Shown here: positions 35,301 through 38,101 of the stretch, in pieces
Position numbering within the stretch: the first letter of the stretch is position 1
Layout: every line of letters begins with the position of its first letter
Source: Pseudoxanthomonas wuyuanensis
GTDB lineage: Bacteria; Pseudomonadota; Gammaproteobacteria; Xanthomonadales; Xanthomonadaceae
Length of the DNA stretch: 64,000 nt
Direction of reading: 5' to 3'
NCBI RefSeq assembly: GCF_900215535.1
Contig: NZ_OCND01000007.1
Span: forward strand, 124,001-188,000
The notes under the pieces: model-generated
What the model was told of the DNA's origin: nothing
Databases searched by the model: none
Seen by the model: only the letters and a program-made list of their open reading frames with translations
Translations under genes and position numbers: made by a program

Positions 35301-35446
35301 GCGGACGATCCGTTGACGTATCTGGCGCTATTGTCGCTGCAAGCGTCGCCTTGCGCGCGGCGCTTGACGGATTTGCCCGGTGCAGGCATGTTGCATTGCA
35401 CCACCCCTGCCGGCATCGGGCCTGCAGACGCAGCGGAAAGGGGCGA

Positions 35447-36895
35447 ATGGACTGGGCGAAATACCGCACCACCACTTTCGACGAGCTGATCCAGGCCAAT
35501 GGGCAGCCGCATCCGGCCGCGCGCCGAGTGGTCGAATACCTGGCCGGGCTGTCCAGCCGCGAAATCGCCGAACGCCAACTCGCCGCCGATGTCATCGCCC
35601 GCGTCCAGGGCATCACCTTCACCGTCTATTCCGACGGCCGCAACGTCGATCGCACGCTGCCGTTCGATCTGATTCCGCGCGTCATCGACCGCCGCGAGTG
35701 GCAGCGCACCGAGGCCGGCCTGAAACAGCGCATGCGCGCGCTGAACCTGTTCATCGGCGACATCTATGGCCGGCAGCGCATCGTCAAGGACAAGGTGTTT
35801 CCGGCGATGCTGCTGAAGGATTCGGTCAACTTCCGCCCGCAGTGCGTCGGCGTCGAGCCGCCGCTGGGCGTATGGGCGCATGTCTGCGGTTCGGACCTGG
35901 TGCGCGACGGCGACGGCACGCTGTACGCGCTGGAAGACAACCTGCGCATTCCCAGCGGCGTGTCGTACATGCTGGAAAACCGCATGGTCGCCAAGCGGGT
36001 GTTTCCGGAACTGTTCGAAACCAGCTCGATCCTGCCGGTGGACGACTATCCCAGCCAGCTCTACGACACCCTGGCCGCGCTGTCGCCGCGTCCGGGCAAC
36101 ACCCCGGTGATCGCGCTGCTGACGCCGGGCGTGTTCAACAGCGCCTATTTCGAACATGCCTATCTGGCGCAGGCGATGGGCATCGAACTGGTGGAAGGCA
36201 GCGACCTGTTCGTCGCCGACGACGACTGCACCTATATGCGCACCATCTACGGTCCGCAACGGGTCGACGTGATCTACCGGCGCGTGGACGACATGTTCAT
36301 CGATCCGGAAGTGTTCCACCCCGAGTCGGTGCTGGGGGTGCCCGGGCTGATCCGCAGCTGGCGCGCCGGCAAGGTGGCGCTGGCCAATGCGCCCGGCGCC
36401 GGGGTGGCCGACGACAAGGTCGTCTTCGCCTATGTGCCGAAGATGATCAGGTACTACCTGGACGAGGAACCTATCCTGCCCAACGTGCCCAGCTACCTGT
36501 GCCACAACGCCAAAGAGCGCAAGTACGTGCTGGCCAACCTGGACAAGCTGGTGGTCAAGCCGGCCAACGAATCCGGCGGCTACGGCATGCTGATCGGGCC
36601 GCGCGCGGGCAAGCGCCAGCGCGAGAAGTTCCGGCAGCTGATCGAAGCCGACCCGCGCAACTACATGGCCCAGCCGACGCTGTCGCTGTCCACCGCGCCC
36701 ATCGTCACCAAGCAGGGGCCGTCGCCGCGGCACCTGGACCTGCGGCCGTTCATCCTGTCGCGGCAGGACACCTATGTGACCACCGGCGGCCTGACCCGGG
36801 TGGCGATGGAGAAAGGATCGCTGGTGGTCAATTCCTCGCAGGGCGGCGGCGCCAAGGACACCTGGGTGGTCGACCTGGAAGAGGAGGAGGACTAG
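35447..36895 (+). CDS. Circularly permuted ATP-grasp type 2 protein
   Basis: The 482-residue product belongs to the DUF404/DUF407 circularly permuted ATP-grasp family. Landmarks are YRTTTFDELIQANGQPHPAARR, DLIPRVIDRREWQRTEAGL, HVCGSDLVRDGDGTLYALEDNLRIPSGVSYMLENR, VPSYLCHNAKERKYVLANLDKLVVKPANESGGYGM (ATP-grasp lysine and glycine loop) and the C-terminal SSQGGGAKDTWV. ATP-grasp enzymes make amide or peptide bonds. It is almost always encoded with an alpha-E protein, and often with a transglutaminase and the Anbu peptidase, in a system whose product is not established. GGAAAGGGG precedes ATG 35447. The following structured element separates it from the alpha-E gene. Confidence 0.92.
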   Translation: MDWAKYRTTTFDELIQANGQPHPAARRVVEYLAGLSSREIAERQLAADVIARVQGITFTVYSDGRNVDRTLPFDLIPRVIDRREWQRTEAGLKQRMRALNLFIGDIYGRQRIVKDKVFPAMLLKDSVNFRPQCVGVEPPLGVWAHVCGSDLVRDGDGTLYALEDNLRIPSGVSYMLENRMVAKRVFPELFETSSILPVDDYPSQLYDTLAALSPRPGNTPVIALLTPGVFNSAYFEHAYLAQAMGIELVEGSDLFVADDDCTYMRTIYGPQRVDVIYRRVDDMFIDPEVFHPESVLGVPGLIRSWRAGKVALANAPGAGVADDKVVFAYVPKMIRYYLDEEPILPNVPSYLCHNAKERKYVLANLDKLVVKPANESGGYGMLIGPRAGKRQREKFRQLIEADPRNYMAQPTLSLSTAPIVTKQGPSPRHLDLRPFILSRQDTYVTTGGLTRVAMEKGSLVVNSSQGGGAKDTWVVDLEEEED

Positions 36896-37158
36896 GGCTT
36901 GCTACCGCTGTTGGGACAGGCCACGCCGCGCTTGAGTGCGTGCGGGGCAAGGAAGAACGAGGGAATCTATGTCGATAAATGACCGAGTAATGACGCAGCA
37001 CCGCGCGCACTCAAGCGCGGCCCCTCGGGTTGTCGTGTCCGGCCGCCATGCGGCCGCGCACGACTTGGACAGGCGGCCAGCCTGCCGCGGCGTCGTGCAC
37101 GACCACCTGACGACCGGACACGGCAACGTGGCCTGTCCCAACAGCGGTAGCAAGCCCT
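36894..37158. repeat. 265-base nested inverted-repeat element (three-way-junction fold)
   Basis: Outer arms 36894-36925 and 37127-37158 are a perfect 32-bp inverted repeat. Directly inside, 36926-36940 pairs perfectly with 37006-37020 (15 bp), and 37029-37042 pairs with 37114-37127 at 13 of 14 positions; within the latter 37058-37064 pairs with 37092-37098. Together this is a long stem opening into two internal hairpins. The left arm starts inside the TAG stop of the ATP-grasp gene, and the right arm ends one base before the alpha-E start codon. No protein is credible within it, and no clear target-site duplication flanks it. Confidence 0.85.
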
Positions 37159-37159
37159 G

Positions 37160-38101
37160 ATGTTGTCGCGCGTGGCCGACAACCTGTACTGGTTCAGCCG
37201 CTACGTGCGCCGCGCCGAGAACACCGCGCGGCTGGTCGGCGTCGGCAGCCAGCTGCAGCTGGACATGCCGCGTTCGGTGCGCTTCGCCTGGCGGCCGATG
37301 ATCGACACCGCCGGCGCCGGCGAGGTGTTCGCCGAGCTGTTCCCCGATGCCGGTGAGGACGTCAGCGACGTCGAAGTGGTGCATTTCCTGCTGCTGGACG
37401 AGCGCAATACCTCGTCTCTGCGCAGTTCGGTCGATGCCGCGCGCGAGATCCTGCGCAGCATCCGCGACAGCCTGCCGCAGGACGTATGGGAAGCGGTCAA
37501 CGACCTGCACCTGTACATCGCCGCCAACGGCGAGCGCAGCATCAGCCGGCGCTACCGCATCGACTTCCTCAGCCGCATCATCGACGGCTGCCTGAAGGTG
37601 TCCGGTCTGCTCAGCGCCAACGTCAGCCGCGACATCGGCTTCCAGTTCCTGCGCCTGGGCACGGCGCTGGAGCAGGCCGACATGACCACGCGTATCATCG
37701 ATGCCGGCGCCTCGGGCCTGATCACCCCGCGCAACGAGGACGATCTGGAGGTCTACCAGAACATGCAGTGGATGGCGGTGCTACGTTCGCTGGCCGCCTA
37801 CCAGATGTACCGGCGCCATGTGCGCCAGCGGGTCACCGCCGAGCATGCGCTGCGCTTCCTGCTGCAGAACAACGAGTTCCCGCGCAGCGTGCAGTTCTGC
37901 CTGATCCGCGCCCAGCGCGTGCTGCCGGCAATGCCGTTCCGTCCCAGCGTGGACCGGCACATGAACCGCGTCGTCGGCCTGACCCGCAACGCCGATCCGG
38001 CCTGGCTGGCGGCCAAGAACCCGGCCGCCTTCATGGACGAAATCCAGGTGCACCTGGGCGCGCTGCATAGCGCGATTGCCGAAGGCTATTTCCACGGTTG
38101 A
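37160..38101 (+). CDS. Alpha-E domain protein (DUF403)
   Basis: The 313-residue, mostly helical product begins MLSRVADNLYWFSRYVRRAENTARLV, the hallmark of the alpha-E family, and contains VEVVHFLLLDERNTSSLRSSVDAAREILRSIRDSLPQDVWEAVNDLHLY and NVSRDIGFQFLRLGTALEQADMTTRIID. Alpha-E proteins accompany circularly permuted ATP-grasp proteins and are thought to act with them in making or modifying a peptide; the reaction is unknown. The start matches the family, yet no Shine-Dalgarno precedes it because the structured element reaches the start codon. Translation may depend on unfolding of that element or on reinitiation. Confidence 0.9.
   Translation: MLSRVADNLYWFSRYVRRAENTARLVGVGSQLQLDMPRSVRFAWRPMIDTAGAGEVFAELFPDAGEDVSDVEVVHFLLLDERNTSSLRSSVDAAREILRSIRDSLPQDVWEAVNDLHLYIAANGERSISRRYRIDFLSRIIDGCLKVSGLLSANVSRDIGFQFLRLGTALEQADMTTRIIDAGASGLITPRNEDDLEVYQNMQWMAVLRSLAAYQMYRRHVRQRVTAEHALRFLLQNNEFPRSVQFCLIRAQRVLPAMPFRPSVDRHMNRVVGLTRNADPAWLAAKNPAAFMDEIQVHLGALHSAIAEGYFHG

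Follow-up and report, generated by a model that had tools for sequence, protein, structure and literature searches.

The gap between the ATP-grasp and alpha-E genes

The window, i.e. the whole analysed stretch of 64,000 nt from Pseudoxanthomonas wuyuanensis, contains an ATP-grasp gene and an alpha-E gene whose intergenic region is occupied by a single inverted-repeat element. Its parts and neighbors are listed by window position:

35351–36895, + strand: ATP-grasp gene, circularly permuted, upstream (ORF; PF14403, E 5e-160; the annotated start is approximate)
36893–36894, + strand: left flank TA, within the stop codon, probably an altered copy of a duplicated target TG
36895–36924, + strand: left terminal repeat, 30 nt, an IS5-type end of the GGGCCTGTTAAC kind, here GGGCTTGCTACC
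36925–37021, + strand: left hairpin arm, 97 nt, better fold on + (106.6 bits with covariance model R1, of which the window copy is itself a part)
36948–36967, + strand: tandem-GA core of the left arm, 5’ side, conserved
36982–36996, + strand: tandem-GA core of the left arm, 3’ side
37022–37028, + strand: junction between the arms, 7 nt, CCCTCGG
37029–37127, − strand: right hairpin arm, 99 nt, better fold on −, with conserved G.U pairs there
37128–37157, + strand: right terminal repeat, 30 nt
37158–37159, + strand: right flank TG of the C-TGATG target
37160–38101, + strand: alpha-E protein gene, downstream (ORF; PF04168, E 2e-81)

The palindromes that the first-pass annotation had described in this gap are exact and far beyond chance. 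The outer 32-nt arms (36894–36925 and 37127–37158) are 100% complementary and lie 201 nt apart; inner pairs are found on the left (36925–36948/36998–37021, 24 nt, 92%) and on the right (37029–37064/37092–37127, 36 nt, 81%). The RNA fold of 36885–37165 reaches −190 kcal/mol compared to −118.2 (sd 5.1) for 200 dinucleotide shuffles, none of which folded equally well (z −14.2). The limits of the element had been placed at 36894–37158; the arms are as claimed, but comparison with other copies sets the element proper to GGGC...GCCC at 36895–37157 (263 bp), flanked by TA on the left and TG on the right. The ATP-grasp stop codon TAG occupies 36893–36895 and shares its G with the first base of the element, and the alpha-E ATG at 37160 is located three bases beyond the last one. 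As described before, no Shine-Dalgarno sequence directly 5’ of this ATG could be recognized by eye. Between 36850 and 37200 we found neither a sigma-70-type promoter nor, on either strand, an intrinsic terminator (stem followed by a T run). An antisense ORF of 202 aa runs across the gap mechanically and was not counted as a gene.

Empty sites, copies and IS5-type ends

For comparison we surveyed 38 genomes of the same genus, of which 33 had an alpha-E match, and compared 30 loci including the one in the window. Because 25 of these 30 loci show a plain TGATG overlap of the ATP-grasp stop with the alpha-E start and carry no element, we consider the element to have been inserted into C-TG-ATG. 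The other five are the window itself, a decayed copy of the element in the same gap of G171 (L166), L154, L158 and one locus with a 55-nt spacer. In L154 and L158 (sister species) the gap holds an unrelated long hairpin (GTAGGTCGGGGCTACGCCCCCGAC...). An ancestral insertion common to the window and G171 is not supported, the two species not being sisters in the alpha-E tree; their elements grouped together in 8% of 200 bootstrap trees, and the window copy is 88.5% identical to L087 compared to 77.5% to the G171 copy. Either a recurrent hit at the same site or a transfer would give this pattern.

The empty site also bears on the earlier statement that no target duplication is visible. The flanks in the window do differ (TA and TG), which is explained by the site being C-TG-ATG: the target TG was probably duplicated and its left copy then changed to TA. 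A duplicated TG would have given TGG, with loss of the stop codon, and the present TAG retains a stop. Copy L019 has TG on both sides, beside an ATG, and copy L002 repeats the pattern of the window, having TAG to its left and TGATG to its right. Among 57 copies the flanks are TA/TA in 30 and others in 27, a count in which a fixed TA inside the element would look alike, and 11 of the 57 start or end inside a stop codon according to a home-made ORF caller. The coincidence of both boundaries with codons had been taken as an argument for function or for selection against other insertion sites; it requires no function here, since the target, CTAG/CTGA, is itself a stop codon or a stop/start overlap. 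In L189, L202 and other copies from Rhodanobacter and Dyella some flanks are TTA or TAA instead of TA, which looks as if they had been moved by another IS5 subgroup with a 3-bp target.

A search of the same genome and of other Xanthomonadaceae, as proposed in the first-pass annotation, revealed copies at unrelated loci. Its own genome, searched with the element, yielded 25 matches, a number of which are fragments or a single terminal repeat. The matches form groups with different ends: GGGCCTGTTAACGCTATTGGG... (family A), GGGGCTGTTGCCGTTTCCCG... (family B) and GAGCGTGTTATGGCCTTTGGG... (family C, with the same build as the element in the window). A 12-base end pattern occurs at 79 sites of this genome compared to 6 for the reversed pattern, and facing end sites are 35–302 bp apart, except for one wider pair whose ends belong to two different elements. 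The covariance model of the left arm matched 21 times, one match being the window’s own arm on the other strand.

Several irregular forms were noticed among these copies. A 27-bp palindrome, AGAGCCTGCCCCGTACTTGATACGGGG, is present in the genome in nine copies (0–1 mismatch), eight of them inside family A, B or C elements. It is located exactly in the arm junction in L005, L007, L008, L018 and L021, and may be a nested small element targeting the junction; also listed for it are the positions C15:53343, C19:238214, C20:76754, C20:241749, C20:312943, C20:623830, C20:1009002 and C12:3347. At C14:8809–8859, C20:1107657–1107707 and C15:103266–103318 facing family C ends lie about 50 bp apart; these are minimal remnants consisting of both ends without arms. 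L023, L071 and L073, each about 150 bp long, appear to lack one arm, and L013 carries a different short palindrome in the apex of its right arm.

The element is short, gene-less and bounded by terminal inverted repeats, has copies at unrelated places and is missing from the corresponding site in relatives, which are the features of a miniature inverted-repeat transposable element (MITE). A miniature mobile element had been one of two possibilities raised before, and transposons of relatives strengthen it. L119 is an 805-bp transposon whose ends read CTA followed by GGGCCTGTTAACACTA; L122 and L135 have the same ends, and those of L118 are a cousin. The reading frames of the L119-type transposons match PF13340 (DUF4096, an IS5-type domain), PF01609 and NCBIfam NF033580 (transpos_IS5_3), which we take to be the IS427-like subgroup. 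The terminal repeats of L119, L122 and L135 agree with those of family A in 15–16 of 16 bases, and TA adjoins the ends. In addition, a single family C-type end is located near the transposase of L138. As IS5 transposons of relatives have nearly the same 16-bp ends, we regard a MITE mobilized by IS5-type transposases as the most likely identity of the element. Within the family 18 of 99 genomes have a PF13340 match. The P. wuyuanensis genome has none; its one PF01609 transposase has other ends than the element, and 10 of the 14 element-bearing genomes are without a PF01609 match. For this reason we infer mobilization from ends and flanks, by which the element was very probably moved by an IS5-type transposase. 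An autonomous transposon was also sought in the P. wuyuanensis genome as a same-family pair of + and − ends 303–4000 bp apart, and no such pair was found.

Beyond this genome, family A DNA was matched in 38 of 149 genomes of the family at E 0.001, many of them weakly. The core pattern of the left arm identified 36 named loci, including Lysobacter, Xanthomonas, Luteimonas, Pseudoxanthomonas, [Pseudomonas] boreopolis, Rhodanobacter and Dyella; the matches in Eggerthellaceae (L177) and Collimonas (L194) are without terminal repeats and look like chance. With the left-arm model 57 of 299 genomes of the order Lysobacterales were matched, as were 21 of 369 genomes of the class, namely P. wuyuanensis and 20 outside the order. 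Relatives of the element are present in Lysobacterales and in other gammaproteobacterial orders. All nine distant loci that were read have the junction CCC-NNN-GGGTTG, with TNC (UNCG) in eight, and L237, L239 and L245 among them carry the end GGGCCTGTTAACACTA. Relatives are also located on plasmids of Azotobacter chroococcum and Methylophaga frappieri, and queries with distant copies gave four plasmid records for one and three for another. A distant-copy query against phages gave none, family A matched neither phage nor plasmid cargo (one query each), and two exact patterns were found in no viral contig.

Conserved fold and strand preference of the two arms

Among 47 collected copies the nine outside 258–275 bp were set aside, and the remaining 38 full-length copies were aligned (22 from named loci, 8 from the P. 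wuyuanensis genome and 8 from other relatives). From the 36 named loci 11 had been left out by hand, for want of a terminal pair, for a partial or off-register pair or as doubtful copies. Mean pairwise identity is 69% (minimum 53%). The elements, of about 265 bp, are Y-shaped and their interior has a near-constant length. RNAalifold predicted 93 pairs, 74 of them with compensatory changes; 95.7% of the paired cells are able to pair compared to 74.6% in shuffles, and the covariation score is 0.584 compared to 0.182 for shuffled alignments and 0.068–0.095 for slid partners. These compensatory changes characterize the repeat family as a whole. The first-pass annotation had treated copies at unrelated loci and compensatory changes as pointing to alternative explanations, a mobile element or an RNA; both observations were made here.

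In the core of the left arm on the + strand Watson-Crick pairs alternate with tandem GA/GA mismatches. The core is near-invariant on both sides, where 22 of the 38 rows were collected by a 20-nt pattern from it, which biases the conservation of those letters, and the other side of the core as well as the remaining 16 rows are free of this bias. In the window copy the 3’ side reads GTAATGA in place of GTGATGA, so that one normally conserved G is altered. A possible likeness of the core to kink-turns or hammerheads was considered and dropped. Of the 38 copies 25 carry TNC as junction loop (UNCG on the + strand; N being T in 13, A in 5, C in 5 and G in 2) and 5 carry its mirror GNA; the window copy has CTC. 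The CC-TNC-GG junction of most relatives would form a C(UNCG)G tetraloop. Three copies scanned against Rfam had no match at the gathering score, and the matches obtained, all far below it, were mostly to microRNA models; a known Rfam RNA is thereby set aside for these copies.

The two arms differ in the strand on which they fold better. Among imperfect pairs the ratio of GT to AC cells is 71:17 in the left arm, 7:44 in the right arm and 30:33 in the terminal stem; the left-arm GT count used a fold derived on the + strand, which favors GU there and works against the right-arm result. When the arms alone were folded as RNA, the + strand gave the more stable left arm in 36 of the 38 copies and the − strand the more stable right arm in all 38, and the terminal stem, serving as internal control, was divided 16 to 15 with 7 ties. 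Restricted to 22 representatives with less than 85% identity, the preference was kept (left on + in 21, right on − in 22, stem 10 to 9 with 3 ties). On its favored strand the right arm is a near-continuous helix with conserved G.U pairs (226 GU compared to 13 AC cells). All 10 copies of family C have the identical preference, but since these copies hardly differ from each other they amount to little more than one case; the preference is also seen in 8 of 8 distant elements (from 8 of the 9 loci), some by less than 1 kcal/mol. DNA energy parameters agree with the RNA preference (left 36/38, right 36/38). The repeat family thus has both features by which we recognize a selected RNA structure, compensatory changes above controls and a strand bias.

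In the distant elements the left arm read on + and the right arm read on − align as homologues over the core. Model R1, built from 31 of the 38 left arms (without L003, L180 and five others), all from Lysobacterales, also matched the opposite arm on the opposite strand in three of the nine distant loci: L238 with 57.4 bits, L240 with 53.3 and L239 with 43.1, the last being close to the 40.5 and 37.8 bits of two left arms read backwards. The right arm of Lysobacterales has moved beyond the reach of R1. In our reading the element contains one hairpin motif twice, in inverted orientation, each copy being sense to transcripts that enter from its side, and the old, many-copy superfamily is best explained by arms that represent, or descend from, an inverted duplicate of a single structured motif.

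Possible role and relation to known repeats

We propose that the element is a non-autonomous MITE moved in trans by IS5-family transposases that would act at CTAG-like sites and duplicate TA, and that selection, most likely at the RNA level, would act on each arm in the strand which places it first for a transcript coming from its own side. Because each arm favors the strand met first from its side, the element would present a working hairpin whichever way it has landed. The combination of a mobile element with two-sided selection at the RNA level is, in our judgment, likely, and that the selection acts on RNA rather than on single-stranded DNA is, taken by itself, probable to a slightly higher degree. 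The fuller picture of an orientation-proof inverted RNA pair that keeps its interior, trades its ends between IS5 lineages and lands in stop codons or overlaps has about an even chance of being right. As to the function, an orientation-independent handling of read-through mRNA might be imagined, by RNase III-type cutting, by protecting the message upstream or by insulation; such an effect is a tentative suggestion that we would not presume. In an approximate context table (home-made ORF caller) many copies lie a few bases from co-directional genes in both orientations, which speaks against a role as strong terminator; of the 47 copies of families A and B 15 are in tandem one way and 12 the other way, 14 lie between divergent and 3 between convergent genes, and 3 were left unassigned.

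A purely selfish IS5-type MITE, whose arms are kept complementary by template switching with no selection of an RNA, would share all the mobile features described above, and covariation alone can be produced when one arm of a palindromic DNA is corrected against the other. Two observations speak for it. Pairs often show full transversion swaps, and copies more than 90% alike have 17 pair positions changed on both sides and 63 changed on one side, compared to 601 and 543 between copies 80–90% alike. However, correction should erase the tandem-GA mismatches, yet these are near-invariant, nor should it give the two arms opposite preferences and leave the terminal stem with none. We therefore consider this explanation unlikely. 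Since DNA parameters give the same strand preference, the arms might instead act as folded single-stranded DNA, for instance bound by a factor of transposition or replication, and each favored arm does lie in the 5’ half of its own strand. We know of no step in IS5-type transposition that requires such strands, and left arms are common to elements with very different ends, which makes a tie to one transposase unlikely; we regard this possibility as quite improbable, more so than a selfish element.

The remaining explanation, that a cis-regulatory RNA arose at this locus for the control of alpha-E translation, had been the second possibility of the first-pass annotation. It would fit the missing Shine-Dalgarno sequence and the decayed copy at the same site in the non-sister species G171. 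Against it stand the plain overlap in 25 of 30 same-genus loci, the dispersal of copies beside many different genes (by the approximate gene context) and the closer match of the window copy to L087 than to the G171 copy. We reject a dedicated alpha-E riboregulator as extremely improbable. At this locus the element landed in the C-TGATG overlap of the two genes; speculatively, its fold would bring the purine-rich end of the ATP-grasp gene, likely the old Shine-Dalgarno region, close to the alpha-E start.

Several known repeats resemble parts of this picture. In contrast to the IS5-family DUF4096 transposons (NF033580), with which it shares the terminal bases of family A and the adjoining TA, the element is gene-less, and transposon ends of the L119 type are without such arms. 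REP palindromes, which are shorter than the element, and ERIC palindromes (the latter treated in PMC10969869) are dispersed intergenic repeats that can alter mRNA levels. That source also describes the Correia elements (NEMIS) of Neisseria, mobile repeats without genes; RNase III cuts their RNA at the terminal repeats. Going by this description, the arms of our element differ in lying inside the terminal repeats. MITEPsy1 of Pseudomonas syringae is likewise gene-less, probably derived from IS5 and found at CTAG or YTAA, but it has 100 nt, 18-nt repeats and a 4-nt duplication, and the accessible portion of PMC3189936 reports no structured arms. By its build and probable mobility the element is probably an IS5-type MITE, near MITEPsy1 in its target. 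A keyword search of the open-access literature gave no description of the element, nor of constant-size inverted structured arms across orders.

MITEs have mostly been viewed as decayed transposons whose interior matters little. Here the interior is the part conserved across orders, in its length, its compensatory pairs and its tandem-GA core, and the ends vary. The finding also accounts for the coincidence of such insertions with stop and start codons. If our reading is true, these elements can sit in operons without breaking genes, by landing in stop codons and stop/start overlaps. Two-sided RNA elements would then bring an RNA function to the operons of many Gammaproteobacteria, and each copy would be a natural test of the effect of intergenic hairpins on expression.
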